Source: Streptomyces sp. NBC_01723
GTDB taxonomy: Bacteria > Actinomycetota > Actinomycetes > Streptomycetales > Streptomycetaceae
Length of the DNA stretch: 64,000 bases
NCBI RefSeq assembly: GCF_036246005.1
Contig: NZ_CP109171.1
Location: 6,064,001-6,128,000 of the forward strand
Direction: 5' to 3'
Each line of letters starts with the position of its first letter. The stretch's first letter is position 1. The position numbers were made by a program, and so were the translations under genes. Shown one piece after another: positions 2,129-62,668 of the stretch. The notes beneath the pieces were generated by a model. That model was not told the origin of the DNA. It worked only from the letters and a program-made list of their open reading frames with translations, and did not search any database.

Positions 2129-2583
2129 AGGGCTTCCCACAGCAGGCGGCTGACGTGGTCGTTGCCGTGGCCGGTTCGTGGGCGGGACGGGGTGTGCCAT
2201 CCGGCGCGGGGCGGCCTGCTGGCGATGACGCGCCACCCGGCGCCGCGCAGTGATGCGCCGCTCTCGCCGTCCTGCGTGTAGGTGATCAGCCGTCGGTAGC
2301 CGAGGGCCTTCGCCGCCCGCCACGCGGCGCCGTAGAGCAGTGAGTTGGCGTTGCGGGCGCCGTCGGTGGCGGTCCGGGTGACTTCGAGGGTGGCGCCGTC
2401 GTCCAGGTGACGGGCCACCGGTCGGCCGACGATGGCCACGGCGCGCAGCGTGCCCCTCTCGTCGGCGGCGCCGACCGCGAAGATCTGTCCTGCGGGCGGC
2501 GGGTGGTGACGGTGCCAGGTGCGTACGAAGTCCTTCGCTTCACGGGAGCGGACCGGCACCAGGTGCAGCGGGGCGTCGCTCAC
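2125..2583 (-). CDS. XF1762-like (GNAT-like fold) protein
   Basis: This 152-residue protein resembles the XF1762 family found in phages and mobile elements. Recognisable segments are HLVPVRSREAKDFVRTWHRHH at the start, the central LEVTRTATDGARNANSLLYGAAWRAAKALGYRRLITYT and the end SGASLRGAGWRVI. The layout is GNAT-like, but no substrate is known. The GTG start overlaps the stop of the coupling-protein gene as GTGA, so it is the immediate translational partner of the VirD4-like gene. Family assignment rests on motif recall. Confidence 0.75.
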   Translation of the reverse strand: MSDAPLHLVPVRSREAKDFVRTWHRHHPPPAGQIFAVGAADERGTLRAVAIVGRPVARHLDDGATLEVTRTATDGARNANSLLYGAAWRAAKALGYRRLITYTQDGESGASLRGAGWRVIASRPPRAGWHTPSRPRTGHGNDHVSRLLWEAL

Positions 2584-4370
2584 GCGGCCGTCCCGAAGTC
2601 GGACTGTGTCGGCGCGTGCTTCGCGACGGCGCGAGCCGTGATTGCCTTCGACGCGCGGGCGGACGCCGCGGACAACTCCTGTGCTCCTGGCTCTCGGTAC
2701 CACGGCCGCAGGTCGAGCATGGCGGCGCGCATGCCGGTGGCGAAGCACAGGGCGGTGCCCTTGGGCAGGGCTCGGATCGCGTCGGCGGGCAGGATCCGTT
2801 CCTGCCGCATCGACACCGACGTGCTCTTGCCGGACTCCGAGTGCGAGGTCGATGTGGTCTCCACGTCGTGGTCGCCGATCAGGCGGGAGAGCTTGTCGGC
2901 GAAGTCGGGGTCGTCGATGCCGGAGCCGATGACCTTGACGGTCGAGGCGGACCACATGGCGTCCATGCCCGCGTCTCCCCAGACCTTCTGGCCCTGTCGG
3001 TAGGACTGGAGGATGGTGATCGGGATGATTCCGCGGGAGCCGAGGTGGGAGTACAGGTCCGGCAGGTCGCTGATCTTGCACACGTTGGCGGCCTCGTCGA
3101 GGATCGCCAGCATGGGCGGGTCCAGGCGTCCGCCGGCGCGTTCGGCCTGGGCGGTGGCCGCGCGCATGACGGAGTCCGCGCACGCGGCGATCAGTGCCGA
3201 GGCCCCGCCTCCGCCGTCCTTGCTCAGCAGGAACAGCGTGTCGGTGGAGGTGACGAACTCCGACGGGCGGAACTCGGGAACGTCCTTCTGGGGGGTGACC
3301 CAGGCGGCGATCTCGTTGTTCAGCAGGGCGGCGGCGTACTGGCGGGCGGTCTCGTAGATGCCGTCGCGGGTCTCCGGGGGGCCCTCGACGGTGCCCTTGA
3401 GCTGGGCGGCTACGGCGGCGAAGTTGTGGTCGCGGAGGATGTCGAGCGGGGTGCGGTCGGCGGGGAAGGCGAGCCACTGCATGATGTCGGTGATGGGCCG
3501 ATCGTCGAGCGCTGCGGCTAGCAGCAGTTGGGAGAGGATGTTGCTGCTGGCCTTGGACCAGAAGTCGCCCTGCTGGGAGGCGTCTACCGAGGCGGCGAGG
3601 AAGTGTCCGGCGAGCCGGTTCGCTCCGTCCAGGGTTGTCGCGCTGGCGAGGGGGTTCCACCACATCTCGCGTGCGGCGTGCGCGATCTGTTGTGGGTCCA
3701 TGGTCCACACCTGCCCGACGCGGGAGCGGGCCTCGTATGTGGCGGTGAATGCGTCTCCTGCGGCCTTGTTCGAGGTCAGGAGGACGGGGCCGGGCGCTGC
3801 GAGCATGGAGGGGATGGCGAGCGAGGTGGTCTTGCCCGAGCGGGGCGCCATGATGGCGACGGCCACATCTTCGTAGCCCATGCGCACCTCGTGCCGGGTG
3901 TTCTGCAGGTTGCCCAGGAGGATGCCGGTGTCGCGGGCTTCGATGTGCTTGGCGTCCTTGAGGCTGGGGCGCAGTGAGCGGGCCTTGTCGGTGATCGCTT
4001 TGGCCATCAAGGGTTCGATGTCCCGGGCCTTGGCCATGCCGGTGATCTTCTTCCGGCTGCCGCTGCGGTTCTTGTGCCGGATCCACAGGGCGAGCGCCGT
4101 CATCCCGAGAGCCAGGAGGAGCAGAACGGGAACGATGCGTGCCCCGATGAGCAGGGCATTCTCCCCGGCCTCGGGCCAGACCTGCTCGGGGCGGAGCAAG
4201 GCGTTGGTCGGCTGGTAGGGGGCCCAGCTGCCTCCGGCGAGGTAGGCGGTGAGGTTGCCGGACAGCCAGGCCAGGTGGGACAGGGGGACGACGACGGCGA
4301 GCACGCCGAGCAGGAGGCGCAGGACGAGGTCGTATCCGTCGGTGTTGCTGCTGGAGGAGGAGGGGGGCAA
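2580..4370 (-). CDS. VirD4/TraG-like coupling ATPase of the transfer system
   Basis: This 596-residue membrane ATPase is likely to link the relaxase-DNA complex to the secretion channel. Two membrane segments lie at about residues 15-35 and 73-97. A P-loop (APRSGKTT) is at about 175-182 and a Walker B (LAILDEAAN) at about 421-429. Between them are TraG-type features: WNPLA, then a Gln-rich ILQSYRQGQ sensor after Walker B. The TTG start at 4368-4370 is the only upstream option; its ribosome site is weak. This is a T4SS coupling protein rather than the hexameric FtsK-like TraB used by most Streptomyces plasmids. It lies 20 kb from the VirB4-like gene but on the same strand and in the same style of gene chain. 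Confidence 0.88.
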   Translation of the reverse strand: MPPSSSSSNTDGYDLVLRLLLGVLAVVVPLSHLAWLSGNLTAYLAGGSWAPYQPTNALLRPEQVWPEAGENALLIGARIVPVLLLLALGMTALALWIRHKNRSGSRKKITGMAKARDIEPLMAKAITDKARSLRPSLKDAKHIEARDTGILLGNLQNTRHEVRMGYEDVAVAIMAPRSGKTTSLAIPSMLAAPGPVLLTSNKAAGDAFTATYEARSRVGQVWTMDPQQIAHAAREMWWNPLASATTLDGANRLAGHFLAASVDASQQGDFWSKASSNILSQLLLAAALDDRPITDIMQWLAFPADRTPLDILRDHNFAAVAAQLKGTVEGPPETRDGIYETARQYAAALLNNEIAAWVTPQKDVPEFRPSEFVTSTDTLFLLSKDGGGGASALIAACADSVMRAATAQAERAGGRLDPPMLAILDEAANVCKISDLPDLYSHLGSRGIIPITILQSYRQGQKVWGDAGMDAMWSASTVKVIGSGIDDPDFADKLSRLIGDHDVETTSTSHSESGKSTSVSMRQERILPADAIRALPKGTALCFATGMRAAMLDLRPWYREPGAQELSAASARASKAITARAVAKHAPTQSDFGTAA

Positions 4371-4402: not shown

Positions 4403-5179
4403 TCAGCGCAGGCGGTGGCGCTCGGTCTGCGGCCGTTGCGGAGGATGCGTGCTCGTCGCCGGCGGGCCGGATCGGCGTGCGGCGAGGGAGCGGACGCGTT
4501 CTTCCAGGGCGCCGGCGACCTGCTGGGCGGGTACTTCCCGGTGCGAGAGGGTGATGACGTCCGGGTTGCGAGTCGGGAGGCTGGAGGGGCCTGCGGTGCG
4601 CGGCACCGGTCGGGGGTCGGTGAGCGCGGTGGTGAACGCGGTGATCAGGTGCGGTGGGGTGTGCTCGCTGAAGTGGGCTTGCCACAGCAGAGTCCGGAAG
4701 TCGCGGAGGGCGGTGTCGACCCACCAGGCCCGAGTTGTCTCGTCGGCCTCGACGCGGACGGTGCCGTCGGGCGAGGCGAGCCGGTGGTGGTTGTAGGCCG
4801 GAATCCAGCCTGATGTGAGAAGCGGCTCTTGCGGATCCCAGTTGTCTGCTGGATCGGCAGTGGGATCGGTCAGCGCATCGGTGAACGTCGCGATCATTTC
4901 GACGGGGGTGCGGGCATCGAAGCTGGCGAACCAGGCGGGCCGGTCCGGCGCGGGGGCGTGCTGCAGAGTCCACCACCGTCCGTCGGGGTCGGGCTCCAGC
5001 CGCAGGAGGGCCTTCTGGTCGGGGCTGGAAAGCAGGACGCGGGGCATCAGGGGGTCGTGACCGTAGCTCCAGCCGCAGGCACGGTGGAGGGGGACGGTGA
5101 TCCAGGCGGGGTCACCGCCGCCGGCCAGGTGGCGCGGGGCGACGTAGTCGATGTCGACGTTGACGGGGACCTCGGGCAT
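4403..5179 (-). CDS. DUF317 protein (two repeats)
   Basis: This 258-residue protein has two DUF317 units. The family hallmark YVAPRHLAGGGD opens the protein, followed by a W-rich strand set (GRWWTLQHAPAPDRPAWFASFDARTPVEMIATFTDALTD) and a second copy (WWVDTALRDFRTLLWQAHFSEHTPPHLITAFTTALTD). DUF317 is common on Streptomyces plasmids and islands and has no known function. The ATG at 5177-5179 sits 2 bp after the upstream stop. The longer open frame upstream is compositional only. Confidence 0.85.
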   Translation of the reverse strand: MPEVPVNVDIDYVAPRHLAGGGDPAWITVPLHRACGWSYGHDPLMPRVLLSSPDQKALLRLEPDPDGRWWTLQHAPAPDRPAWFASFDARTPVEMIATFTDALTDPTADPADNWDPQEPLLTSGWIPAYNHHRLASPDGTVRVEADETTRAWWVDTALRDFRTLLWQAHFSEHTPPHLITAFTTALTDPRPVPRTAGPSSLPTRNPDVITLSHREVPAQQVAGALEERVRSLAARRSGPPATSTHPPQRPQTERHRLR

Positions 5180-5181
5180 GG

Positions 5182-5784
5182 TCACCGCCCCCTCGCGCCG
5201 TGTCCGCTGCGCCGGGACGTCAGGGCGGGGAGCTGCGGGCGCTTCGGCCGGGACGGTGCGCGGCGTGCGGCGGCCTGGATGTCGAGGATGACGCGGCCGT
5301 GGCAGGTCCAGTCGTCCAGATAGCTCCAGCACTCTGCGTGGTGCGCGTCGAGCGCGTCGACGTACGCGTCGCTGCCCGGACCGGCACCCTCGGGGAGCTG
5401 GGCCCGGGTCTGGCGCCACTGCGCGTCCAGGGCGTCGAGGTGGCTCAGTGCCTCCTCCAGGATGGTCAGCTGCCCGGGCCAGCTGTCCCGCGTGAGGTGT
5501 GCGGGCAGGTGCTGGAGCTGGAGCCGGGCGGTGGCCAGCAATTGGCGGGCGCCAGGACGGATGCCGTCGAACGCTGCGGCGGTGTCTGCGTCACGGACGG
5601 CGGCCGGGCGGCCGTAGGCGTCCTGGTCGAAGGGCCAGCCGTCCAGGTCCGTGTTGAACGCGGTGAAGGCGTCCCAGGACGCCAGGATCCGTTCACTGTG
5701 GCGCAGGTAGCGGTTGAGGCGCCGCAGCGAGGTGCGGCGGCCGTGGTTCGTGGTGCGGGAGATGAGAGCATCCTTTGAGGTCAG
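5182..5784 (-). CDS. Helical protein of unknown function with CTG start
   Basis: This 200-residue helical protein begins (from the proposed start) with TSKDALISRTTNHGRRTS and continues through DSWPGQLTILEEALSHLDALDAQW. The only conventional start in frame is a TTG at 5541, which would remove 81 residues of clearly coding sequence. A CTG at 5782-5784 (CTG ACC TCA) overlaps the TGA of the upstream DUF317 gene as CTGA and is the best start; an AAAGGA followed by ATC at 5763 is the alternative. No catalytic motif is visible. Confidence 0.72.
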   Translation of the reverse strand: MTSKDALISRTTNHGRRTSLRRLNRYLRHSERILASWDAFTAFNTDLDGWPFDQDAYGRPAAVRDADTAAAFDGIRPGARQLLATARLQLQHLPAHLTRDSWPGQLTILEEALSHLDALDAQWRQTRAQLPEGAGPGSDAYVDALDAHHAECWSYLDDWTCHGRVILDIQAAARRAPSRPKRPQLPALTSRRSGHGARGR

Positions 5785-6602
5785 CGGCGGGCGGCCGGCT
5801 GGACGGCGGTCGTGGGCGCCGGGGGTGTCGCGGGGGTGGTCTGCTGACGGCGCACGGCGCGGGCCTGTGCGCGGAGCGTCTTCACCCGGGCGGTGTGCGC
5901 GTCGACTACCTGCTGCGGGCGCAGCGGGCTCGGCTCTTTTACGGCGCTGTAGTGGGCGGTGCGGTCGAACATGCCGCGCTGCAGCGGGCTCTGGTCGGTC
6001 AGCGCGCCCAGGAAGGCACCGGCGAGCCGATCGGGAACGTGCTCGTCGAGGAAGGCGTGCCAGATCCGCGGGCCCGGGAATGATTCGTCGCTGCTTGTCC
6101 TGACCTCGATGTGCCAGGACGGGCGTTCATGGAACTCACTCATGGGGCGGTGCTCGATCCGGCACAGTGAGTCCGGAGAGAGCGCTCTTCCGGCATCCTC
6201 GTACTGCCAGCCTGCGCTGGTCACGGGCTGCCAGGGGTCCGGTTGCGATGAGGGCGGTGTGATGAGGGCATCGGTGAGGCCGGCGAGGACCTCGGCCGGC
6301 ACGAGTTCACCGAACTCGGCGTACCAGCCATGGTCGTTGTCGCCGGGGGCGGCCCGCAGCCGCCACCAGGCGGAGGTGGCGGACTGCGGGTCGAACTGCA
6401 GGCGGTAGCGGTGATCGGGGCTGGCCATCACGATCTCGGCGCTGAGCGGGTCGGAGACCGTGGCCCATCCGGCCGCGGCCAGGCCGTGGGTGACGTGGCG
6501 GGCGTCGCCCGGGCCGGCGAGGTGGCGGGGGCTGGTGTCGAAGGGGATCTGCCCGGCGTGCTTGTCGGCGAAGGCGTCGAGCTGGCGCTTGCTCAACGGC
6601 AC
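5781..6602 (-). CDS. DUF317 protein (two repeats)
   Basis: This 273-residue protein carries the DUF317 signature DTSPRHLAGPGDARHVTHGLAAAGW, a WWRLRAAPGDNDHGWYAEFGELVPAEVLAGLTDAL unit and a second W-rich unit ending IWHAFLDEHVPDRLAGAFLGALTD. The basic, Pro-rich tail is disordered. The GTG start at 6600-6602 lies inside the end of the upstream gene (10-bp overlap), so expression is coupled. Its role is unknown; it is one of several DUF317 paralogues here. Confidence 0.85.
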   Translation of the reverse strand: MPLSKRQLDAFADKHAGQIPFDTSPRHLAGPGDARHVTHGLAAAGWATVSDPLSAEIVMASPDHRYRLQFDPQSATSAWWRLRAAPGDNDHGWYAEFGELVPAEVLAGLTDALITPPSSQPDPWQPVTSAGWQYEDAGRALSPDSLCRIEHRPMSEFHERPSWHIEVRTSSDESFPGPRIWHAFLDEHVPDRLAGAFLGALTDQSPLQRGMFDRTAHYSAVKEPSPLRPQQVVDAHTARVKTLRAQARAVRRQQTTPATPPAPTTAVQPAARR

Positions 6603-6946
6603 CGGCTGCACCCCTGCTCGCTCTCGGCGTCGTCGTGCAGCGCACGCAGCTCGTCCAGGACGTAGTGGAGGGTGTGCTGGTCGGTCTGTTCCCAGGCGGC
6701 TGAACGCAGCTCGGCGATCAGGACGTTGACGTGCGCGGTACGTGGGATGGCCTGGTGTTCCTGGATGGTGCGGGCGAGGGCACGCAGGGTGTCGGCGAGC
6801 TGGACGGGCAGGCCCGTGTACTCGTCGAGGAGCGGCTCGACGAGGGCGAGGGCTTCGGCGGGGTCGGGATTCTCGCGCAGGTACTCGGTGACGTCCGACA
6901 GCGTTTCGGTCAGGGTGCGCAGGGTTTCCGGGGTGGGGGCGGGCAT
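6593..6946 (-). CDS. Small helical protein of unknown function
   Basis: This 117-residue protein is strongly helical (TLRTLTETLSDVTEYLRENPDPAEALALVEPLLDEY, then QLADTLRALARTIQEH). The short tail ends CSRCR. ATG at 6944-6946. It lies between two DUF317 genes and overlaps the downstream one by 10 bp. No catalytic residues are apparent; a helix-bundle adaptor is a reasonable guess only. Confidence 0.75.
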   Translation of the reverse strand: MPAPTPETLRTLTETLSDVTEYLRENPDPAEALALVEPLLDEYTGLPVQLADTLRALARTIQEHQAIPRTAHVNVLIAELRSAAWEQTDQHTLHYVLDELRALHDDAESEQGCSRCR

Positions 6947-6972
6947 CGGGCTCCTTGAGACGGGGATTCAGG

Positions 6973-7776
6973 TCAGCGGCGGGTCCGGGCACCGCCGGAC
7001 GGGGCGTAGGGACGGGCGGTGGTGTGTGGCCGGGTGCTTCGGGCGCTGTTGCGGGCCCAGGTGGCGGCGTGGGCAGCTGTGATCCGGGTCTGCTGCCAGG
7101 CGCTGAGCTGGGAGGGCTTGACGGAGACCGACCAGGTCCGGATCTGGGCGCTGTGCGGGACACGTCCGCGGGGGCGCATCACCGGGTCCGGGCCGGCAAG
7201 TTCGGTGGAGAAGGCTTGGACCAGGTGCATCGGCGTGTTCGGCGTGAAGGTGGCCGTCCAGCCGTTGCCCTGCTTGTCCTGCGCTCCGGTCCACCACATC
7301 GCCGAGCCATCGACGCCCTGGCGGTACTGCATCCACGCGGTGCCGTCGGGGCTGCTCGCCGAATAGTCTTGGCCCTCGAACCGCGTGTGCCAGTTCTGCT
7401 CCTGCAGAGGTGCCCAGACGTTGGGGGCGTGTGCGGAGCGGGGGCGGGTGAGGGCGTCGGTAAGACCGGCGACGATCTCCACCGGAGTCTGCCGGCCCAG
7501 GTGCGCAGACCATTCACCGGTCGCGCCGCCTGCCCGGCCGTGGATGGTCCATCCGCCCGGCAGGATGTAGGGGTCGTAGGCGACGCGGACGGTGCGGTCC
7601 GGGCTCTCCATGAGCAGCGGGCCGCCCTTCTTGGACTTCTCCCGCCAGCCCGAGGCGCGCAGGAACTCCGAGACGTGCCGGACGTCACCGCCGCCGGCCA
7701 GGGCACGGGGCTGGACCAGGTAGTGCTGCTCGGCCTGCTCGCCCGGCCCCCAGCCCTGCCACTGCTTCTTCTTCAC
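6973..7776 (-). CDS. DUF317 protein (two repeats)
   Basis: This 267-residue protein contains YLVQPRALAGGGDVRHVSEFLRASGW, the N-terminal DUF317 signature. Two W-rich units follow (GGWTIHGRAGGATGEWSAHLGRQTPVEIVAGLTDALT and SAMWWTGAQDKQGNGWTATFTPNTPMHLVQAFSTEL) and then a basic tail. The GTG start overlaps the upstream stop as GTGA (7773-7776). The N-terminus VKKKQWQGWGPG is basic. Function unknown. Confidence 0.85.
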   Translation of the reverse strand: MKKKQWQGWGPGEQAEQHYLVQPRALAGGGDVRHVSEFLRASGWREKSKKGGPLLMESPDRTVRVAYDPYILPGGWTIHGRAGGATGEWSAHLGRQTPVEIVAGLTDALTRPRSAHAPNVWAPLQEQNWHTRFEGQDYSASSPDGTAWMQYRQGVDGSAMWWTGAQDKQGNGWTATFTPNTPMHLVQAFSTELAGPDPVMRPRGRVPHSAQIRTWSVSVKPSQLSAWQQTRITAAHAATWARNSARSTRPHTTARPYAPSGGARTRR

Positions 7777-8156
7777 CGGCGCCGCCGTACGACGAGCGGG
7801 GCAGGAGCCGGAGGCTTCGCCGCGCTGGTGGCCGGTCTGGTGCCGAGGTGCTGGAGGAGGTCCTGGTGCTCGTCCAGGTCCAGGCTGATGTCGTGCAGTT
7901 CGTTGGCGGCACGGCCCAAGGCGAGCCATACCTCCGCTGGCAGGGCGCCTCGTTCTGCCTCACTCTTGGCGAAGTGGCTGCCGGTGATGACGAGGTGAGT
8001 GACGCCGCCAAGGACTCCGTTGTCCGGGTCGAGGACGCGGGCGATGACCTGCGCTGCCTGGGGCGGGGGAAGCTGAGAGAGGTGGTCGGAGAGCTGGCCG
8101 AGCTGGCGGGTGATCTCGTCGGCCAGTCTCACCGGGTAGGGGGCGGGGTGGGACAT
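7773..8156 (-). CDS. Small helical protein of unknown function
   Basis: This 127-residue protein has a helical core: LADEITRQLGQLSDHLSQLPPPQAAQVIARVLDPDNGVLGGVTHLV and AEVWLALGRAANELHDISLDLDEHQDLLQHLG. It shares the general pattern of a helical pair around a DxxxGVL turn with other small proteins of the chain. Starts at ATG 8154-8156; its stop is coupled to the DUF317 gene downstream. Confidence 0.72.
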   Translation of the reverse strand: MSHPAPYPVRLADEITRQLGQLSDHLSQLPPPQAAQVIARVLDPDNGVLGGVTHLVITGSHFAKSEAERGALPAEVWLALGRAANELHDISLDLDEHQDLLQHLGTRPATSAAKPPAPAPLVVRRRR

Positions 8157-8857: not shown

Positions 8858-9517
8858 TCAGCGGCGGCGGGAAACCGGGGACTGTGCACGGCCCGCTGCC
8901 GGTGTCGGGGCCGGTGCGGTCGCTGGCGGCTGCGCCGGGCGGGCGGCGTGGTTGCGGGCGCGCAGGATGACGCGGGCGGCATCGCTCAGGGAGTTGGCCG
9001 TGCTGCCGAGCCGTGCGATCGGCTCGGGTTCCTCGCCGGGCGCGGCGCCGTGGAGATCACTGGCGGCGATCCAGGCGCGGACGATCACTTCTCTGGTCAG
9101 GGGCAGCAGCCCGTGCACGGGCCCAGCGACCTCGGTCAGGACCTCGGCCACCTCGCTACTGGTCTCGGCGGCCGAGACCCGCTCGGCGAGTTGGGTCAGG
9201 TAGCGCACGGCTGCGTCACGGTCGCCGTCGGGTGTGGCCAGCATGTTCAGGGCGGGATCGAGGTGGACGCTGTGGCCGGCGGCGAGCAGGGCGTGCGAGG
9301 CGGTGGTCGCCTTCAGGCGCTGCTGCTCGATGGGCAGGCCGTGCGGAAGACGGTGGTAGTCCCCGCGGGGTCCGGGAGAGGTGAGGAAGCCGCCGGTCCG
9401 CTGAAGGATGTCCGCTGCCTGCTCGGTGCCGCCGATGGCCACCACCAGACCGGTACGGGGGTCCTTGGTGATGGTGACGTACTCCAGGACCCAGAAGTCG
9501 GGCTCCGTCTGGTTCAT
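8858..9517 (-). CDS. Two-domain protein: recurrent GH-V-D domain plus helical bundle
   Basis: In this 219-residue protein, residues about 30-90 hold the recurrent small domain (ADILQRTGGF, GDYHRLPHGLP, ALLAAGHSVHLDPAL). Residues 100-195 form a helical unit (EVAEVLTEVAGPVHGLLPLTREVI). The gene at 10298-11002 has the same architecture, so they are paralogues. The ATG overlaps the upstream stop as ATGA (9514-9517). No function is known. Confidence 0.78.
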   Translation of the reverse strand: MNQTEPDFWVLEYVTITKDPRTGLVVAIGGTEQAADILQRTGGFLTSPGPRGDYHRLPHGLPIEQQRLKATTASHALLAAGHSVHLDPALNMLATPDGDRDAAVRYLTQLAERVSAAETSSEVAEVLTEVAGPVHGLLPLTREVIVRAWIAASDLHGAAPGEEPEPIARLGSTANSLSDAARVILRARNHAARPAQPPATAPAPTPAAGRAQSPVSRRR

Positions 9518-10297: not shown

Positions 10298-11002
10298 TCA
10301 GCGGCGCAGTCGGGTGGCACCGACGGGTGGCGGTGCCGGGGCCGGCAGGGCACGCGGCGGGGGCGGGCAGGCGCACACCGCGGAGCGTTCGGTCTCATGG
10401 TCGGGAACCTGCTCGGTGCAGGCGCGGCGGCCGGGGTGAGGGGCGTGCCGGTCGGCCAGCCGTCCGCGGGTGTGCGCGAGGTCGGAGCGGATGACGCGGA
10501 CGTATTCGTCGGCGAGGTAGCGCAGGCGCCCGGCGGTGTACGGATCGCTCGCGTCACCGAGGCCGTCGAAGAACTGGGCCAGGGCGCCGAGGGTTTCCTC
10601 GAACCCGGCGAGGACGCCGTCGTGGGGCGCGGTGAGTTCGGTGAGGACGTCGGCTGCCTCGGCGGTGTCGGTGGCCTCGCGCAGGCGTTCGGCGAGGTGG
10701 GCGACCGAGGCGCCGAGTGTGGGATAGCTGGCGGGGCGGGCGTCGGTGTCGAAGCGCTCGTCGCAGTCGACGTGGTACCCGACGGCCCGCAGGCGCCCTA
10801 CGGCATCGGTGGCGAGACGGGACTCCTCGTCCTCGGTCAGGCCGGCGGGGGCGCGGTGGTAGCTCTCGTGGAGGCGGACGACCGCGACGAATCCCGCGCG
10901 CTGGAGGATGCTGTGTGCCTCAACGTCGCCGCCGCGGGCGAGGAGTTCGTCGGAGTGCGGGTCACGGCGGATGTCCAGCAAGCGGCCGGTGGTGCGGGGC
11001 AA
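10298..11002 (-). CDS. Two-domain protein, paralogue of the 8858-9517 gene
   Basis: This 234-residue protein has the recurrent domain (HSILQRAGFVAVVRLHESYHRAPAGLTEDEE...LRAVGYHVDCDERF) in the first 90 residues. A helical unit follows (AADVLTELTAPHDGVLAGFEETLGALAQFFDGLGD). It is collinear with the protein encoded at 8858-9517, which indicates duplication inside the operon. ATG at 11000-11002. Function unknown. Confidence 0.78.
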   Translation of the reverse strand: MPRTTGRLLDIRRDPHSDELLARGGDVEAHSILQRAGFVAVVRLHESYHRAPAGLTEDEESRLATDAVGRLRAVGYHVDCDERFDTDARPASYPTLGASVAHLAERLREATDTAEAADVLTELTAPHDGVLAGFEETLGALAQFFDGLGDASDPYTAGRLRYLADEYVRVIRSDLAHTRGRLADRHAPHPGRRACTEQVPDHETERSAVCACPPPPRALPAPAPPPVGATRLRR

Positions 11003-11015
11003 AGAGACGTTTCTC

Positions 11016-11864
11016 CTACAAAGATCGGTGGATGGTGCGCCGGGCCGCGGCCGGTGCGGCGGCGGCCCGGGGCTGGGCCAGATGGGCCGCAGTGGCGTCC
11101 AGGTCCTGCTGAATCGCGTGGAGGCGGCGGGCGATCAGCTCCAGACGGTGCGCCGTGTCCGTGCCGGCAGCCCCCGGTTGGCGGGCGATCCGGTAAGCGG
11201 TGTGCTCGACCAGTCCGCGGACCGTGGCCAGCGGGCCGGCCTGTTCGTCGGCGAGCTGCGTGAGGACGCCGGCGAGCTGCGCCGTTGCGGTCGGGACCGT
11301 ACGGGCAGCGGACCGCGTCGTGGGGCCGGTGCGGACGGGGATCAGGTGCAGGTCCTGCTCGATGCGGCGTGCTTCGTCCGCAAGCCGTCGCAGGATGTCG
11401 GCGGGCGGGGTGCGCCAGGTGCCGTCGAGGTGGATCAGGTTGGCGATCAGATCCAGACGTCCGGGCTGGCCCTGGACAGCGATCCACCGCCACCCGTGCT
11501 CTGCGGCGCCGGGCACCTCGATACCAGCGGCCCGCGCGAACCGGTGGGCGGTTTCGGACCACTCGGGGCCGGTCAGCTCCCGGTCGTCCGGGTGGAGCCG
11601 GACGTCGAGATGGAGGATCGCGTGCCGGTCGTCGTCCGGGCTGGCAGCGAACGGGTGCTCCAGGTACGGATCTTCGAGGTGCTCGGCCCACTCAACGGAC
11701 GTCCAGGTCCTCTGCTCGTCGTCCGGGGTGTAGTAGTCCAGGCCCGGCCAGTGGGCGACCACGGTGTACTCCGTCAGGCCCTCGTTCGGGGAAAGGGGCC
11801 GCCCGAGCGCCTCGGCCAGCGGCTCGCGCGGCGAGTGGGCCCTCGGGTGCAGGCGGGGGATTAT
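11016..11864 (-). CDS. Relaxase-like protein without metal-binding histidines; ATA start
   Basis: This protein of about 282 residues has an N-terminal 150 residues that align with the relaxase encoded at 60067-61809. IIPRLHPR matches MIPRIQKR, HAILHLDVRLHPDDRELTGPEW matches HVWHLSVRNGSEDRILSDAEW, and WRWIAVQGQPGRLDLIANLI matches CRWAAVRHADDHIHIVATLV. The HxxxHxH triad is replaced (GRLDL), so nicking is unlikely. The relaxase start ATG corresponds here to ATA (11862-11864), which overlaps the upstream TAA as ATAA; no ATG/GTG/TTG lies near. The rest is helical. A regulatory or DNA-binding role without cleavage is inference. Confidence 0.7.
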   Translation of the reverse strand: MIPRLHPRAHSPREPLAEALGRPLSPNEGLTEYTVVAHWPGLDYYTPDDEQRTWTSVEWAEHLEDPYLEHPFAASPDDDRHAILHLDVRLHPDDRELTGPEWSETAHRFARAAGIEVPGAAEHGWRWIAVQGQPGRLDLIANLIHLDGTWRTPPADILRRLADEARRIEQDLHLIPVRTGPTTRSAARTVPTATAQLAGVLTQLADEQAGPLATVRGLVEHTAYRIARQPGAAGTDTAHRLELIARRLHAIQQDLDATAAHLAQPRAAAAPAAARRTIHRSL

Positions 11865-12649
11865 GACGGCACCCCGCTCGACGTGCGGGTGGGCGACCGG
11901 TGCTGATGAAGGTCGCGGGCTGCACAGAGCAGCGAGCGCTCGCGCACCAGGTCGGCGTGGACCGAGATGTCTCCCGGCGGAAGACAGTCGATCGCCCTGT
12001 CGATGGCGCTCAGCCCCTCGTCGTACCGGCCCAGCCGGCGCAGGGCACCCGCCGTGCGGAAGAGGACGATCGGGTCGGTGCCGGTGGCGAGGGCGGGCCG
12101 GGAGCTGAGGGCCAACAGACGCTCCGCACCCTCGTTCAGGTCCTGGCCGAGCCACAGCCCGTGCAGCAGGACGTGCAGGGTCTTGGGGTGCTCCTCGGCC
12201 GTGGCGAGGACCTCGTCCATGACCGTCAGGCCCTCGGGGCGGGACTGGCCAAGCAGCGCGAAGGCGTACAGGGCGCGGGTGTAGCAGTCCAGCGGCTGAC
12301 GTGCGGTCTGCGCGAGCTGTTCGACGACGTGCTGGAGGGTGGGGCAGCGGAAGTCGAACCGCAGGGCGCTCAGGTACAGATGCGCCAACGTGCGGGTGGT
12401 GATCGGATCACGGTGCGTCGCGAGGACATCCTCCGGGGACAGCAGGCCCAGGACGCTGAGGCCGGCTGACCGTGCCGCCCAGGCGGCATCCGCGCACACC
12501 TCGGCTGAGGTTTTCCAGTCGGCCCGGATGCCGTGGAGGTCTTCGGCCAGGCGCAGCGGCCAGGAAGCATCGTCCGTAGTTGCGGTGGCTCGGGCCCTGG
12601 CCTTGCGGAGCGCAGCGGCACGGTCGGGGCGGTTCGTGGGGGAAGTCAC
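11861..12649 (-). CDS. TPR-like helical repeat protein
   Basis: This 262-residue protein has several helix-turn-helix repeats of TPR type: TRTLAHLYLSALRFDFRCPTLQHV, CYTRALYAFALLGQSRPEGLTVMDEVLATAEEHP and LFRTAGALRRLGRYDEGLSAIDRAIDCLPPG. The last is close to the TPR consensus. It is likely a protein-interaction scaffold. The ATG at 12647-12649 overlaps the upstream TGA (12646) as ATGA. It precedes the relaxase-like gene, so a partnership between them is possible but unproven. Confidence 0.72.
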   Translation of the reverse strand: MTSPTNRPDRAAALRKARARATATTDDASWPLRLAEDLHGIRADWKTSAEVCADAAWAARSAGLSVLGLLSPEDVLATHRDPITTRTLAHLYLSALRFDFRCPTLQHVVEQLAQTARQPLDCYTRALYAFALLGQSRPEGLTVMDEVLATAEEHPKTLHVLLHGLWLGQDLNEGAERLLALSSRPALATGTDPIVLFRTAGALRRLGRYDEGLSAIDRAIDCLPPGDISVHADLVRERSLLCAARDLHQHRSPTRTSSGVPS

Positions 12650-48369: not shown

Positions 48370-48977
48370 GTGGAGTTCCCTGTCGACGTCGCCCTGGCCG
48401 AGCTGGTGCCGCAACTGCCGACCGGGCCGCGCTGGTGGTATGAAGTGAAGCTCGACGGTCACCGGGCAGTTTTGTGGCGGCTGGCTGAGACAGTTCGACT
48501 TCAAGCGCGGTCGGGTCGGACGTGACGACGCCCTGGATGGATCTTGCCGTGGCGGGGATGGCCCTGCCGCCTGGTGTCGTCTTGGACGGCGAGGCCGTCG
48601 TCGTGGTTGACGGGCGGGTGTCGTTCGAGGCCGCTCAGGCTCGGGCGGCTTCCTCGCCTGCCCGGTCGCGGGAGCTGGCGGCGCGGCACCCTGCGCTGCT
48701 CATCGTGTGGGACGTCTTGTCGTTACCCACCGGGGACGTGAGGGGGCGTCCGTATGAGGAGCGGCGCGCCTTGATGCTGGACATGGTGGCCGGGCTGCCG
48801 GAGGGGTCGCCAATTCAGGCAGTGTCGGCGACGGAAGACGTGGAGGTCGCCCGGGTCTGGTACGAGACGCTGACCGGCTCCGGTGTGGAGGGGGTGGTGG
48901 CGAAATCGGGGCGGTCGCCGTACCGGGCGGGTCGGTCGTCGTCGTGGTGTGTTGACTGCACCATCTCAGCGAAGTGA
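48370..48977 (+). pseudogene. ATP-dependent DNA ligase, N-terminal part, frameshifted and truncated
   Basis: GTG 48370 opens VEFPVDVALAELVPQLPTGPRWWYEVKLDGHRAVLW, with the ligase motif KLDG (the Lys would be adenylated). The frame closes at a TGA after SGRT, at about 48525. Coding continues in the next frame from 48522 (VVLDGEAVVVVDGRVSFE, LLIVWDVLS, GVEGVVAKSGRSPYRAGRSSSW). Insertion of one base near 48518 restores the ligase. At 48948 the homology stops abruptly where the Tn554-like element begins. The missing C-terminus is at 54383-54675. Confidence 0.85.
48952..48963 (+). repeat. Left terminal repeat of the Tn554-like element
   Basis: It reads TTGACTGCACCA. The right end, read inward on the minus strand, is TTAACTGCACCA, one mismatch in 12. 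Confidence 0.65.
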
Positions 48978-49023
48978 GAGTGCAGCCTTCGAGCCCGACG
49001 ACGGCAAGGGGCGGTACTGGTCC

Positions 49024-50220
49024 ATGGATCTACGAGAACTTTTGACGACGGGGCAAGCGCGCCCAATGCAGGTGGGTGGGGTCGTGAGGACCGGCCGCGA
49101 GGACATTCCGTTCCTCGTGGTGGATGCCCAAGGCAACGCCCTTCCCGAGGTGGAGGTTTGGGTACGCGACCTGATGCGAGGGGACGCCCGCCCGAAGACC
49201 TGTCGTTCTTACTGCTATGCCCTGCTGACTTGGTACCGGGTGTTGTGGACGCTGGGGCGTCCTTGGGATCGGGCCACTGAGAATGACACGGCTGTGATGG
49301 TCGGTTGGCTTCGTGTTGCGCGCAACCCGCAGCGGCGTCGATGTCGGGTGGGTGCGGCTCCGGCGGGGTCGGTGAATGTACGGACGGGGAAGCGTGCTCT
49401 GCCCGAGGGATACAGCGCTTCGACGATCAACCTGACGCTGGCGGCGATGCGGGGCTTCTACGAGTTCCACGCCCATTTCGGGGAGGGGCCTGCGGTCAAC
49501 CCTGTGCCGGAGTCGCACCGTCAGCGTTTGCTCAACCGTCATCACGCGCCGGATGCCCCCTGGCAGGTGAGCCGTCGTAGTCGGCTGCGGCAGAAGACGG
49601 TGGAGCAGTCTCCTCGGTCCATCCCGGACATGCAGTGGGACGAGATGTTCGCCAGCCTGCGGTGCGACCGGGATCGTGCTCTGCTGGCCTGCTACGTCAG
49701 TTCGGGAGCGCGTGCCACAGAGTTGCTGAGAGTGCTCGGTGCGGATGTCGACTGGGCTGGGCAGCGCCTGTGGGTGATCTCCAAGGGGAGCACCGCTCGG
49801 CGGGCGGTGCCCATCTCGCCTGAGGCCGTGCGATGGCTGGCCCGGTACATCGCGGCCCGCGGGCCGCTCGATCTGCAGGAGGTGGTGTGGCGGACCCGGC
49901 GCGGTGAGTCACGGCCGCTGTCCTACTCGGCTATGCGGCGGGTGGTGCAGCGGGCGAACGAGGTGCTGAGCACGAACTGGACGCTGCACGACATGCGGCA
50001 CACCGCGGCGATCCGGATGGCCAATGACCAGGCCCTCAGTCTGACCGACGTGCAGACGATCCTCGGTCACCGCGATATCCGGACCACCACCCGCTACACC
50101 GTGCCTCGGGTAGAGGAGATGTTCGACCGCCTGCAGACGTTCTATACCCGGCCGAGGAACGAGCCGAGGCTGCCAGCCGGATACGACCCGCAGGACATGG
50201 AGGTCGTCTTCGGTGGCTAG
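49024..50220 (+). CDS. Tyrosine recombinase, TnpA-like
   Basis: This 398-residue protein has an N-terminal SAM-like core-binding domain (TCRSYCYALLTWYRVLWTLGRPW). The catalytic domain shows SSGARATELLRV (Arg I), SKGSTARRAVPIS (Lys strand), LHDMRHTAA (HxxR), LGHRDIRTTTRY (His and the Tyr nucleophile nearby). ATG 49024 is preferred over an earlier TTG/GTG because homology begins there. The downstream gene overlaps it by 8 bp, the tnpA-tnpB order of Tn554. Confidence 0.9.
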   Translation: MDLRELLTTGQARPMQVGGVVRTGREDIPFLVVDAQGNALPEVEVWVRDLMRGDARPKTCRSYCYALLTWYRVLWTLGRPWDRATENDTAVMVGWLRVARNPQRRRCRVGAAPAGSVNVRTGKRALPEGYSASTINLTLAAMRGFYEFHAHFGEGPAVNPVPESHRQRLLNRHHAPDAPWQVSRRSRLRQKTVEQSPRSIPDMQWDEMFASLRCDRDRALLACYVSSGARATELLRVLGADVDWAGQRLWVISKGSTARRAVPISPEAVRWLARYIAARGPLDLQEVVWRTRRGESRPLSYSAMRRVVQRANEVLSTNWTLHDMRHTAAIRMANDQALSLTDVQTILGHRDIRTTTRYTVPRVEEMFDRLQTFYTRPRNEPRLPAGYDPQDMEVVFGG

Positions 50221-52703: not shown

Positions 52704-54020
52704 TCAGAAGCCGAAGGAGTTGTGCGGTTCGGGGTCGGCCCAGAACATTCGAGCAAGCTGTCCGATCGCGCCGTCGGTGTGCGGAGTGATATGGCCCGCA
52801 TACGCCAGGTGGTGCGCCGATATGCCACCGAAGTAGAGCGAGCTGAGCGCTGAGAGCCTGATAGTCAGGTCCGCCGCCTCGTCGGTCGGAACACACGTCG
52901 CCACGGGGCCATCTGCTCTCAGATGCCACGTCCTGTTGTTCGCCCGGCACATCTGGTCGTCGTCGATGGTGAACCTCAGCTCGCCGGGCGTGAGATACGA
53001 GCGTTGCGTCAGGGCTCGGGGGACATCGAGAAGGCGCGCCCAGAGGTTGTCCGTCTGGCGAGTGACGCGCATCGCCCGCGGGTTCGTGAGCATCCACCGC
53101 AGGGGTTCGTCGCGCGGACGACCGGCCGCCACGATGCTCTTGGTGAGGTCGAAGTCGATCAACAGTCCCCACAACGCGCGGTAGGCCACAGCATTCGTCG
53201 CCTCCAGGGCTTCCACCACGAGCGTTCCCGCACGATCCGCAGTCGGAGACCACGGCAGTCGGAAGTTGGCGATGCCGTCCACATCGCCGTGCTGGTCGCG
53301 GTGGGCGAGAAAGCGCAGCGGTCCGTTCGTGCCGTCCGCTTCGTCGGACAGCCCGTCCCAGCGCCCGGGGAGAGGACTCAGCTCCCCGACCCGGTGTGCA
53401 CGCACGTCCGCATGCACCGGGGGCCAGGCCTTCTTCGCCTGCGCGGCGTCGACCAGCTCCAGCGACCCAGGGTCCGGCTCCGCCGGAAGGAGGGCCGCTT
53501 CGTGACGGGCCAGCTCCCACCGGGTGCGGTAGGTCGCCGGCGAGAACCCGAACCGTCCATAGATGCCGCCCTCGCTCGCGCTGAGCATCGCCAACGGCTC
53601 GCCTCGCTGCAGGGCCGCGTCGAACATGGCCTGCATCATCTGGCGCAGGTAACCACGCCGGCGATGCGTCGCGATCACTCCGGTAGCAGTGACGCCAGCC
53701 ATCCTCCCCGTTCCCCCTCCGGGGACCGTCACCTCGAAGGAGATAGTCGCCGATGCACCGACACACCTGCCGTCGACGAATGTCGCGATCGGGTGGAAGG
53801 ACTCGTCCTTGATGTCGGCTGCCGCCAACTTCTCAAGCCGCTCCGCGCTCGCAGGCCTGCGCTGTGGGGGCCACGGCTCGGGGCCACCGTGCCACGCGGC
53901 GTCCGCAGGCTCCCAGCTCGGTAATCCGTTCGCGAACGGCAATGCCCGGTAGTACGCAGCCATCTCATCTGGCCGCGGCGGACGGACCTCAGTCATCATG
54001 CCGGACATTGCATCCGCCAT
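52704..54020 (-). CDS. Eis-like GNAT acetyltransferase
   Basis: About 438 residues. The N-terminal GNAT domain has MAGVTATGVIATHRRRGYLRQMMQAMF (acetyl-CoA loop RRRGYL) and LSASEGGIYGRFGFSPAT. A second GNAT-like part and a C-terminal SCP2-like domain (LRFTIDDDQMCRANNRTWHLRADG) end in the free carboxylate SFGF, as in Eis. Eis enzymes acetylate aminoglycosides or protein Lys. It is the only non-recombinase gene of the Tn554-like element, in the position where related transposons carry resistance. Start among several ATGs is uncertain. Confidence 0.85.
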   Translation of the reverse strand: MADAMSGMMTEVRPPRPDEMAAYYRALPFANGLPSWEPADAAWHGGPEPWPPQRRPASAERLEKLAAADIKDESFHPIATFVDGRCVGASATISFEVTVPGGGTGRMAGVTATGVIATHRRRGYLRQMMQAMFDAALQRGEPLAMLSASEGGIYGRFGFSPATYRTRWELARHEAALLPAEPDPGSLELVDAAQAKKAWPPVHADVRAHRVGELSPLPGRWDGLSDEADGTNGPLRFLAHRDQHGDVDGIANFRLPWSPTADRAGTLVVEALEATNAVAYRALWGLLIDFDLTKSIVAAGRPRDEPLRWMLTNPRAMRVTRQTDNLWARLLDVPRALTQRSYLTPGELRFTIDDDQMCRANNRTWHLRADGPVATCVPTDEAADLTIRLSALSSLYFGGISAHHLAYAGHITPHTDGAIGQLARMFWADPEPHNSFGF

Positions 54021-54366
54021 CCCCACAGGCGAGCAACCGAATATCCGCTCAGGGCTTGCCCTTCAGCAGCATAGCCATGGGCGGCCAGGGCGGGGGAGCA
54101 CGATTTGGAGCAGCCAGACCTTGAAGAACAAGCTGAGCCTGCGGCAGCCTCGTGCTGATCGTCGACACCATGTAGGGCCCCTACCTGGTCCCTCCTTACG
54201 TACTGCACTCCTACTGACCCGCGACGAGGGCGATCCACACCCGCCAGCAGCATCACAACCGGTTCTCGAACCGTCGGGAGCCGACGTCCGTCCCCGTCCT
54301 GCCCAGCCTGGGCAGGCCCAGATTTGCCCCTCCCGCTGGTACAGACACCGTCTTGAAGATCAATAG
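54021..54366. other. Non-coding right part of the Tn554-like element
   Basis: No gene with coding bias is seen in this 346-bp stretch. GC content is lower than around it. It ends in the right terminal repeat. It may contain the recombinase binding sites of the right end and the promoter of the leftward acetyltransferase. Confidence 0.5.
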
Positions 54367-60066: not shown

Positions 60067-61809
60067 TCACCGCGCCTGACGCGATGTCTCCTCTCCGCTG
60101 CGCCGCCTGCCGGGCGCGGAGGGTCTGGCGGCCATCCCGCGCGTCACGGACCGGTTCCCTGCGGTGCTGGTCTCGGGAAGCTGGGAGGCATCGGCGGGCA
60201 GATCGGCTGTCCGTCGCATCCGCCACACGAGCACGTCGCTGACGGAGTCCGCGGTGCCCAGTTCGCGCCGAGCGGCAACGTCGGACAGGAGAGCGGCCGG
60301 GTCGTGGCCGGCGGCTTCGGCTTCCGCAATGGTTGCAGCCAGGGCGTACCAGCCGGGTTCGGCAAGGATCTGCTCGGCCAGCTCCGGCAGCGCCTCGCGC
60401 AGCAGCACGGTCTGACGCTGGAGCATCGGTCGGCTCAGACGCCGACCACGCTGGTAGAGCACACCGAGCGGCTGGGCAGAGGCGGCCCGGTAGGCGGCGC
60501 TCAGGTGCTCGGCTGCTCGGGCGGCGGCTTCTGCCTGCTGGGCGTGGCCCTTCCTGGCGTGCCAGTGCGCGGTGGCGGTGATCAGGAAGAACAGCATGTC
60601 GATCGCCATTGCCGTGGTGGCTCCGTCCTCACTCCGGCCAAGGGCCGGACCGCCCTGGTCGAGGTCGCGGGCGGCCTGTCGCAGGGCGTGATCGTGCCCG
60701 CGTACGGCGCGGACGTGAGAGCGCGAGGCCCGTTCGAAAGCCGTTGCAGCGTCGCGCAGTTCGCGGCGTGTGTGGGCGGCGGACGTCTTCGCGAGGGCGT
60801 CCAGGACCTCGCCGACCGCGGCGATGTGGGCGGCGGCGACCCCGTCCTCGCCGTGTTCGACGACGAGCACGGCCTGCCACACGGCCGATGCCGTTCCGCG
60901 GCGCGCGGAGGCCGGACTGCCCGGCCCCGTACGAATTGCTTCCTCTCGCCGGGCCGCAGGGACATCCTGCGCATCACCGGACCACCGCTCGCGGATGCGA
61001 GGCAAGGACAGGTCGGGAGCCAGGCGTGCGCCGGGGTAGAACACCGGCTCGCCGTCCTTGTTCAGGTCGTCGGGCAGGGCGACCTTGTATCCGAGCAGGT
61101 CACCGGAGGGAGCGGCGCGCTTGCGGATCAGGAGGCCGGCGGCGGCGAGCCGGTCGAAGAACTCCTCGTCGCTCCGCGCTCCGCTCACCGCGCGTCGTAC
61201 GGTTTCGCGCAGTTCCTCGCGGGCGGTGCGCTCGCGGCCCTGCCGCTTCGCCTTGTGGCGTTCGGCGCTGGTGGGCCGCTTCGCTGCGGTGCCGTCTCCC
61301 TTGTTGAGGCGCCGCAGGCCCAGTTCCGCTTCGAGCGCCCGGGCCTGGGCCTGCACACGGTTGGCGTCGTTGTCGAGGTCGGGTTTGTATCCGTCTTCGC
61401 GGACCAGAGTGGCGACGATGTGGATGTGGTCGTCGGCGTGACGCACGGCAGCCCACCGGCAGCCCGCTCCTTCCTCGGGGTTGTCGATCCCTGCCGCGGC
61501 GACCATCCGGCGGGCCACGTCGCCCCATTCTGCGTCCGAGAGGATCCGGTCCTCGCTGCCGTTGCGCACGGACAGATGCCACACGTGCTTCTTCGGGCGC
61601 TGGGAGGGGTCGATGTTCTCGACGGGCTGGTCCAGGAGCTGCTGGAGCTGCTTGAGGGTCGCGGTGGTGTCGCGGCCGGGGTCGGGGGCGTTGTGGTCCC
61701 AGGAGGCGACGAGGTGGGGGTCGGTGTGCTCCTCGAACTTGCCTGGTCCGTAGAGGTAGTAGAGGAGGCCGATGGTGCGCTGTCCGCGCTTCTGGATCCT
61801 GGGGATCAT
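60067..61809 (-). CDS. Relaxase (mobilisation nuclease)
   Basis: This 580-residue protein nicks DNA at the transfer origin and leads the strand into the recipient. MIPRIQKRGQRTIGLLYYLYGPGK opens the nuclease domain. WHLSVRNGSEDRILSDAEW and the metal motif HADDHIHIV (His124, 128, 130) are intact. Tyr18 or Tyr20 may be the nucleophile. Residues 150-270 include a basic linker (KRPTSAERHKAKRQGRERTAREEL); the C-terminal 300 residues are helical. Starts at ATG 61807-61809, overlapping the MobC-like stop. Confidence 0.9.
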   Translation of the reverse strand: MIPRIQKRGQRTIGLLYYLYGPGKFEEHTDPHLVASWDHNAPDPGRDTTATLKQLQQLLDQPVENIDPSQRPKKHVWHLSVRNGSEDRILSDAEWGDVARRMVAAAGIDNPEEGAGCRWAAVRHADDHIHIVATLVREDGYKPDLDNDANRVQAQARALEAELGLRRLNKGDGTAAKRPTSAERHKAKRQGRERTAREELRETVRRAVSGARSDEEFFDRLAAAGLLIRKRAAPSGDLLGYKVALPDDLNKDGEPVFYPGARLAPDLSLPRIRERWSGDAQDVPAARREEAIRTGPGSPASARRGTASAVWQAVLVVEHGEDGVAAAHIAAVGEVLDALAKTSAAHTRRELRDAATAFERASRSHVRAVRGHDHALRQAARDLDQGGPALGRSEDGATTAMAIDMLFFLITATAHWHARKGHAQQAEAAARAAEHLSAAYRAASAQPLGVLYQRGRRLSRPMLQRQTVLLREALPELAEQILAEPGWYALAATIAEAEAAGHDPAALLSDVAARRELGTADSVSDVLVWRMRRTADLPADASQLPETSTAGNRSVTRGMAARPSAPGRRRSGEETSRQAR

Positions 61810-62435
61810 GGAGCTGATGAGTCCTGGTCCTGGTGGAGGAGCTGGTCGGTGGCGTGATGGACACGCTGGATCGCGCGGTCGGTGGCCGCGATGACCACGT
61901 CGAGTTCGCCCGGGTGTGCTCCGGCGTTGACTGCTCGGGCGATCTGGTTCAAGTTGTTGCCGATGTAGCCGAGGTGGCGGCGGGCGGCGAAGAATTCGGC
62001 GATTACCTCACGCTCGTCCGCGACGGCACTTGCGGTCCGTTCAAGGTCACGGGCGGCAGAGAGAGCAGCACGCGCGAGGAATCCGGCGAGGGTGAGGCCG
62101 GCAGCCTTCGCGCCGGCGGTCACGAGGATGAGTTCGTCATCACTGAAGCGGGTGTTGCGGACATGCGGACGCTGGCGACGCTGGTACTTGCGCCGGCGCG
62201 TACGCGGCTGCTCTCGTATGTCCTGTGCCCCTCCTGGCTGCGATCCGCCCCCGGTCGCAGCCTCCTCGTCTGGCGTCCCCCGGCGCCGGACGAGCCCCGT
62301 CCCCCCAGGGGCGGGGGAACCCTTGGATACTCCGCTCAAGGCGGAGTATCCAAGGGGATAACTTGCTCGCCCCGAGACCGAGTTGGAGCCGGGATCAGGT
62401 TCCGGGGTGGTGCCGTTCTTGGGTGCGTTCGTCAT
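61806..62435 (-). CDS. MobC-like relaxosome accessory protein
   Basis: This 209-residue protein has a disordered N-terminal half. The conserved C-terminal part (RNTRFSDDELILVTAGAKAAGLTLAGFLARAALSAAR, ribbon-helix-helix-like, then AARRHLGYIGNNLNQIARAVNAGAHPGELDVVIAATDRAIQRVHHATDQLL) matches MobC. MobC proteins bind at oriT and help nicking. ATG 62433-62435 overlaps the upstream stop as ATGA. The gene includes the inverted repeat at 62320-62356. Confidence 0.85.
   Translation of the reverse strand: MTNAPKNGTTPEPDPGSNSVSGRASYPLGYSALSGVSKGSPAPGGTGLVRRRGTPDEEAATGGGSQPGGAQDIREQPRTRRRKYQRRQRPHVRNTRFSDDELILVTAGAKAAGLTLAGFLARAALSAARDLERTASAVADEREVIAEFFAARRHLGYIGNNLNQIARAVNAGAHPGELDVVIAATDRAIQRVHHATDQLLHQDQDSSAP
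62320..62356. other. Candidate oriT hairpin inside the MobC-like gene
   Basis: A perfect 16-bp inverted repeat, CCCTTGGATACTCCGC and its complement, surrounds a 5-nt loop TCAAG (62336-62340). An AT-richer GATAACTTGC follows. It lies in the disordered, poorly conserved part of the protein, next to the relaxase gene, where nic-proximal repeats are usual. Confidence 0.6.
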
Positions 62436-62668
62436 CGGGATTCGGGCCTCGTAGAGCGGGTGCGTTGCTGGATGGTGGCGGCCAGCGCGAGGACATCGGC
62501 TGGGCTGGCAAGGACGCGGACCGGTTTGTTGGGACGGTTTTGGACGAGCCACTGCCCGGTCGGCGTGAGGACGACGGCGTGGAGGAGTTGCCGGCGGACG
62601 AGGACCTCCGCCCAGGCATCGGCCTCGGCAGTGGTGGGCCCGGAAAAGCGAGGGGGACGAGGAATCAT
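62432..62668 (-). CDS. Small wHTH-like protein of the mobilisation operon
   Basis: This 78-residue protein starts at ATG 62666-62668: FSGPTTAEADAWAEVLVRRQLLHAVVLTPTGQWLVQNRPNKPVRVLASPADVLALAATIQQ. Alpha/beta, possibly a small regulator. AGGAGGT lies upstream. Its stop overlaps the MobC-like start. Not recognised. Confidence 0.75.
   Translation of the reverse strand: MIPRPPRFSGPTTAEADAWAEVLVRRQLLHAVVLTPTGQWLVQNRPNKPVRVLASPADVLALAATIQQRTRSTRPESR

Follow-up and report, generated by a model that had tools for sequence, protein, structure and literature searches.

What a relaxase-like protein can do without the residues that cut DNA is the question raised by a gene of Streptomyces sp. NBC_01723. 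The gene lies at 11016..11864 on the minus strand of the window, which is the whole stretch of 64,000 nucleotides that was analysed (positions 6,064,001 to 6,128,000 of contig NZ_CP109171.1, within the 8.85-Mb genome G000). It comprises 282 codons beginning with ATA, and its product is named the pseudorelaxase here; the translated frame, numbered from one codon ahead of ATA, is referred to as P0001. The answer favoured here, with slightly more confidence than doubt, is that the pseudorelaxase does not nick DNA but serves as a structural subunit, or adaptor, in the complex formed by the relaxosome and the coupling protein.

The N-terminal domain of the protein (residues 1-177 of P0001; 11337..11867, minus strand) has the relaxase fold. 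BLASTP matched the pseudorelaxase to the relaxase encoded at 60067-61809 of the window with E = 1e-10 (33% over 101 residues), and profile-profile comparison with this relaxase by hhalign gave a probability of 99.4% and E = 9e-22 over residues 1-181. An alignment of the N-terminal part with the element's own relaxase had been claimed in an earlier note, made from the letters of the DNA, and these values indicate that it is not due to chance. Similarity to relaxases was also found in the structural comparison that the note had proposed, where the best solved-structure matches of the predicted model of the domain are relaxases. Foldseek by itself was weak, with MobM as the top match (E 0.03, probability 0.95), and the fold claim is carried by VIA-align and hhalign, not by Foldseek. 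P0001 matched no Pfam family at E 1 and nothing in NCBIfam or PHROGs, and PF03432 was matched by none of the 30 family members scanned (E 0.1). A search of PDB sequences returned three coiled-coil designs only for the family profile and nothing for the relaxase.

Loss of the catalytic residues is a trait of the whole family, not of one allele. The profile alignment pairs V-R-H-A-D-D-H-I-H-I of the relaxase with V-Q-G-Q-P-G-R-L-D-L of the pseudorelaxase, which bears out the earlier claim that an HxxxHxH metal site had become GRLDL. The first, second, and third metal histidines are found in 47, 47, and 47 of 47 active relaxases, compared with 0, 2, and 3 of 97 family rows, and the complete triad, which the note had proposed to look for in homologues, is kept in none of these rows. 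The tyrosine column holds Tyr in 44/47 active relaxases and in 0/97 family rows, and the LLYYLYGPG tyrosine motif of relaxases is deleted or replaced in the family. For the 97-row alignment, the short frames L043, L100, and L025 were left out, identical rows were merged, and L026 was kept separate. A pattern test had classed L103 and L118 as active and L122, L124, and L128 as other, and this classing was overturned by the alignment.

The family separated from active relaxases long ago. All 47 active relaxases stand on one side of a branch with 100/100 support, and 55 family rows together with the divergent L026 on the other, which speaks against reading the pseudorelaxase as a recent duplicate of the element's relaxase; the family without L026 has a support of only 66/75. 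The tree is unrooted and contains long branches, including L024, L026, L151, and L152. L024, L151, and L152 retain one or two of the histidines, and because of these rows and of parsimony, the catalytic residues appear to have been lost rather than never present.

The protein search found 514 relatives at E 0.01 among 7994 candidates scored. Among the matches listed (the best 120 of 514), identity ranged from 78 to 100%, the length was mostly 280-283 residues, and those named by NCBI were mostly 'relaxase/mobilization nuclease' of Streptomyces. The 80 named loci carry Streptomyces titles, plus one Kitasatospora and one 'Actinobacteria bacterium'. Members above 300 bits occurred in 6/394 genomes of the class, every one of the same genus, and a scan of 200 genomes of the taxonomic family found members in a second genus too. 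No relative of P0001 was detected among viral contigs, nor among PLSDB plasmids at E 1e-5. Two copies are present in at least five named genomes (L051 with L061, L037 with L048, L036 with L044, L046 with L062, and L054 with L096). In a scan of 392 genomes, the species was represented by one further genome, G812, in which the start region of the gene was not matched, as would be expected of an element that is gained and lost.

The gene is a component of the cluster of a predicted conjugative element with a type IV secretion system, as indicated by its conserved place with a type IV coupling protein (T4CP) and a relaxase. Of the 80 named loci, 66 exceed 20 kb, and neighbourhoods were counted in these, with paralogue cross-hits removed. 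In 66/66 loci, the genes g12646, g9514, and g7773, a DUF317/SPDY protein, and a TraG/VirD4-type coupling protein about 7.9 kb downstream are found on the same strand. Two further genes, g10298 and g8858, are present in 63/66 and 43/66 loci, respectively, an AAA/VWA pair in 27/66, and a TPR-like gene in 25/66; SPDY proteins occupy three separate places in 61 loci. In the window, the TraG/VirD4-type T4CP lies at 2580..4370 (minus strand; PF12696, E 1.1e-34), about 8 kb downstream, and the partner relaxase (PF03432; 60067..61809, minus strand) has intact HADDHIHI and LLYYLYG motifs. A NikA/MobC-like auxiliary protein with an uncertain start is encoded at 61806..62552 on the minus strand (PF21983, E 5e-10; PF05713, E 2.2e-7).

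Linkage was followed in 24 copies from 22 genomes by means of 31 relaxase rows of at least 50% identity and 24 T4CP rows of at least 74%. The coupling protein followed downstream on the same strand in 22/24 copies. In 18/24 copies, a relaxase of the window's kind is encoded 34-107 kb upstream on that strand, and in none is it downstream; in G094, this upstream relaxase is split over two frames. In the converse test on 150 genomes, the gene adjoined 21 of the 24 testable T4CPs of at least 74% identity, including the divergent L026 of G014, and G012, G035, and G060 had such a T4CP without an adjoining pseudorelaxase gene. The 24 were drawn from 27 T4CP places, with the exclusion of G099, where the gene and the T4CP are on separate contigs, and of G033 and G130, where contigs end.

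The earlier claims of an in-frame protein and of tight operon coupling proved correct. The frame starts with ATA at 11864-11862, reads ATA ATC CCC CGC, and stays open until the stop at 11016-11018. The ATA codon (11862..11864, minus strand) overlaps the TAA stop of the upstream gene (11861..12649, minus strand), which has weak TPR matches below the cut-off and corresponds to the gene found in 25/66 loci. The next gene, called from TTG, begins 13 bases past the pseudorelaxase gene. The overlap reads ATAA in the window, GTGA in L037, and ATGA in L039, a close relative with an ATG start within a nearly identical stretch, and a change from ATGA to ATAA leaves the overlapping stop of the upstream gene intact; the readings for L046 and L051, taken at a wrong codon, were disregarded. 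Aligned start codons of 79 named loci, with L093 excluded as unscored, are GTG in 57, ATG in 19, and ATA in 3 (L035, L036, and L097). The statement that the gene had lost its ATG is therefore true of the allele of the window's lineage and not of the family, in which ATG or GTG is used in 76/79 loci. The start region was found in 8/392 genomes of the genus, with ATA in the window's genome and in G737, which may coincide with one of the named loci. The copy of L097, from a record titled Kitasatospora aureofaciens, is 99% identical to that of the window in its best segment and has both ATA and a shortened frame. Among the first 80 codons, the sole alternative start is the GTG of codon 35; initiation there would cost the predicted model its first strand and helix, and P0003 is annotated with a start at the same position as ATA in the window. 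Judging from the synonymous and nonsynonymous differences among ATA carriers given below, the protein is probably still made from the ATA gene.

The C-terminal helical module of the pseudorelaxase (residues 191-264 of P0001; 11076..11297, minus strand) resembles those of g10298 and g8858. The protein g10298 (10298..11002, minus strand), whose model has a predicted local distance difference test (pLDDT) value of 83, consists of a small alpha/beta domain and a helical module and is called the X domain; g8858 (8858..9517, minus strand) is a second X-domain protein with an hhalign probability of 98.8% to g10298. The comparison of the C-terminal helices of the pseudorelaxase with the C-terminal half of g10298 gave 89.6% and E 1.9e-6. 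A module profile built from relatives of g10298 and g8858 was run over all open frames in the window (599) and matched only these two, by construction, and the pseudorelaxase. The module hidden Markov model matched 94 of 117 family frames, a few genes being included twice, and none of the 46 active relaxases. The pseudorelaxase and a whole g10298-type protein are fused in one frame in L022 and L023. The conclusion that the module is common to the pseudorelaxase and the neighbouring X-domain proteins is moderately supported. A helical module in g7773 was suggestive by eye and found no support from hhalign (4-6%). The fold of the X domain had no outstanding structural match in a search that barely covered its N-terminal alpha/beta part.

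Relaxase-fold proteins that lack the triad and are joined to an X domain recur near the coupling protein, though not in every cluster. In a second type of cluster, the protein B1 adjoins coupling proteins of about 61-73% identity. It consists of a relaxase domain in which LLxYLYGPG is kept and NQPRQVHV replaces the triad, fused to an X domain. B2, found in some second-type loci, is 169 residues long and carries either NQASGLDI or NRANGLDI. There are 19 such loci (17 of 20 T4CP places at 61-71%, and two more); L167-L169 were chosen for relaxase-like pieces, and the unbiased set is L182-L196 (15 loci). B1 was detected in 6 of the 15 loci fetched regardless of relaxases and in 3 of the 4 others, and B2 in 5/19; B2 adjoins B1 in five loci. 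The B1 loci are L167, L168, L169, L183, L184, L185, L191, L193, and L194, with the gene of L185 spread over two frames. B1 has 353 relatives at E 0.001, and none of the 120 matches listed contains HxxxHxH in its first 170 residues. A tree that includes B1 and B2 places a single branch of 95/92 (bootstrap not settled) between active relaxases and all non-catalytic rows, and therefore one loss is indistinguishable from several. Tentatively, and with more doubt than confidence, these proteins may form a recurrent class of Streptomyces pseudorelaxases shared by two or more kinds of transfer cluster, with triads lost in different ways (GRLDL; NQPRQVHV with the tyrosine; NQASGLDI) and the former active site turned into a conserved pocket for interaction. 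In such a split relaxosome, cutting and docking would be performed by different relaxase-fold subunits, the pseudorelaxase being paired with a distantly encoded active relaxase via operon-specific helical modules.

What the adaptor role and its partners may be is suggested by the make-up of the operon, by the natural fusions, by the shared module, and by the acidic domain. In an old, separate relaxase-fold family without the nucleophile tyrosine and the metal histidines, the former active site would have become a new conserved pocket. The relaxase-fold half may contact the true relaxase, the NikA/MobC-like auxiliary, or the coupling protein; the neighbouring X-domain proteins would be joined to the pseudorelaxase through its C-terminal helical module. 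The pseudorelaxase would thereby help to deliver the relaxosome to the coupling protein of this type-IV-secretion conjugative element of Streptomyces. The rewritten former metal-site block, AVQGQPGRLDLIANLI (11433..11480, minus strand; residues 130-145 of P0001), with the pattern AVQxQPGRLDLIANLI, is the most conserved 16-residue segment of the domain in the 97 rows (rank 1/162), and it again ranks 1/162 when only the 55 rows under 85% identity are used. Two observations temper this reading. The equivalent stretch ranks 5/158 in active relaxases, so the conservation of the block may be partly structural, and the likeness of the module to g10298 falls to 29.3% (E 5.8e-4) with less diverse alignments. 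The family nonetheless keeps its own residue letters in the block.

The alternatives differ in how much of this evidence they can accommodate. If the gene were a decaying pseudogene, ATA would be a further step of decay, and the ATA start of the window's lineage, the shortening of 7/79 copies, including L097, and a window copy separated from that of L036 by 8 synonymous and 9 nonsynonymous changes (dN/dS, the ratio of nonsynonymous to synonymous rates, 0.41) would be expected. The window and L035 differ by 13 synonymous and 8 nonsynonymous changes, and the copy in the window seems to be under weaker constraint. However, the family is under purifying selection and is not simply decaying. The median dN/dS is 0.23 and the maximum 0.36 (155/171 pairs of 19 chosen intact copies, dS 0.1-1.5), L035 and L036, both with ATA, differ by 17 synonymous and 3 nonsynonymous changes, frames of at least 272 residues are kept in 72/79 loci, and the former active site is the most conserved block. 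Decay is thus very improbable. Purifying selection, this block, and the fixed place in the operon support the earlier view that the protein was kept for a non-nicking role. Nicking through another metal site or nucleophile would have precedents, as relaxases with a HEN site and relaxases whose nucleophile is a histidine are known (PMC12857230). It is as hard to credit as decay, since the tyrosine motif is deleted and the three metal-site columns of the 97 rows show no HEN pattern: the first column is A in 79 rows and either A or G in 93, the second is R in 90, and the third is D in 93. The family is thus not of the MOBHEN type.

Regulation via DNA binding is the main rival to the adaptor role, although it is itself unlikely. 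The pseudorelaxase would then be a non-cutting protein bound at the origin of transfer (oriT) or at an operator, either as a regulator or as a DNA-bending auxiliary of the relaxosome. The relaxase fold is a DNA-binding fold, and 78-98% of rows carry a basic residue at the positions of arginines 82, 88, 101, 118, 151, and 157 of relaxases (relaxase numbering). In contrast, the conserved Arg ahead of the first His is Q in 86/97 family rows, the basic columns 46, 142, and 166 of active relaxases are not retained, and the median net charge of the domain is -11 (range -16 to 12), compared with -1 in active relaxases; the window's domain contains no lysine. A perfect 16-nt hairpin at 62320..62356 (no strand assigned), which adjoins GAGCAAGTT and precedes the relaxase start by about 550 bases, is a candidate oriT with a putatively fast-changing stem; in 3/9 other loci (L199, L200, and L203), AGCAAGTT has another hairpin after it, at 546-582 bases. 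The genome contains the 23-base sequence of the window's hairpin a single time, next to mobC and away from the pseudorelaxase gene. This single copy and the acidic domain make the oriT binding suggested earlier less likely. As a family-wide target the hairpin was rejected, as its 23-base pattern was found in 0/21 other genomes at up to 3 mismatches. A role in immunity or exclusion, in which the protein would act as a decoy against the relaxase of another element entering the cell, is more doubtful still. An acidic relaxase lookalike would fit such a decoy, but the presence of two gene copies in several genomes (G110, G057, and the five named above) speaks against strong exclusion, and the gene is located inside a run of transfer genes.

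Other features of the window accompany this cluster. Three successive DUF317/SPDY proteins at 4403-7929 are basic (net charge +10 to +22) and lie next to acidic neighbours. Two adjoining tyrosine recombinases (PF00589) are encoded at 48883-52651, between the secretion genes and the relaxase, and an acetyltransferase with PF13527, PF17668, and PF13530 (SCP2_2) domains at 52704-54026; we take this domain make-up to be that of Eis-type enzymes. Elsewhere in the same genome (L171, C1:6870000-6888000), a second coupling protein (54%) has VirB4- and EccE-like neighbours of about 27%, and no relaxase-fold gene was detected in this stretch of 18 kb.

Streptomyces is best known for a different, TraB-type transfer. 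If the adaptor role is true, a relaxase pseudoenzyme would have been retained with a function of its own in the conjugation machinery, and it would offer a handle on how the relaxosome is handed over to the coupling protein in actinobacteria. The NCBI name 'relaxase/mobilization nuclease', which many of these proteins carry, is probably wrong as to the nuclease, and programs that find elements by counting relaxases could be misled by it. Use of a HUH-like fold without catalysis is known from the origin-binding domains of papillomavirus E1 and polyomavirus T antigen, which bind origins in a system unrelated to the pseudorelaxase. No description of a non-catalytic Streptomyces relaxase family was found in the literature searched, which included passages of PMC9513070, PMC12857230, and PMC3218068 and mostly did not cover subscription journals. 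With the HUH relaxases of PF03432 (MobA/VirD2-like), the pseudorelaxase shares the fold, the linkage to a T4CP, and the scaffold residues D87, W95, R118, W119, E160, and L165 (relaxase numbering). Unlike them, it has no tyrosine and no His triad, is acidic, and carries another C-terminal module. An altered motif III is common to the pseudorelaxase and the MOBHEN relaxases (MbeA of ColE1), in which HEN replaces HHH, according to PMC12857230, whereas the pseudorelaxase has neither HEN nor the tyrosine. The proposed role, that of a relaxosome component without catalysis and possibly in contact with the T4CP, has its closest parallels in the auxiliary proteins TraY, TraM, and TrwA (PMC12857230) and MobC/NikA. 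P0001 differs from the NikA/MobC-type auxiliaries in that it matches neither PF21983 nor PF05713, nor any other Pfam family, and the window encodes its own NikA/MobC-like protein beside the true relaxase.
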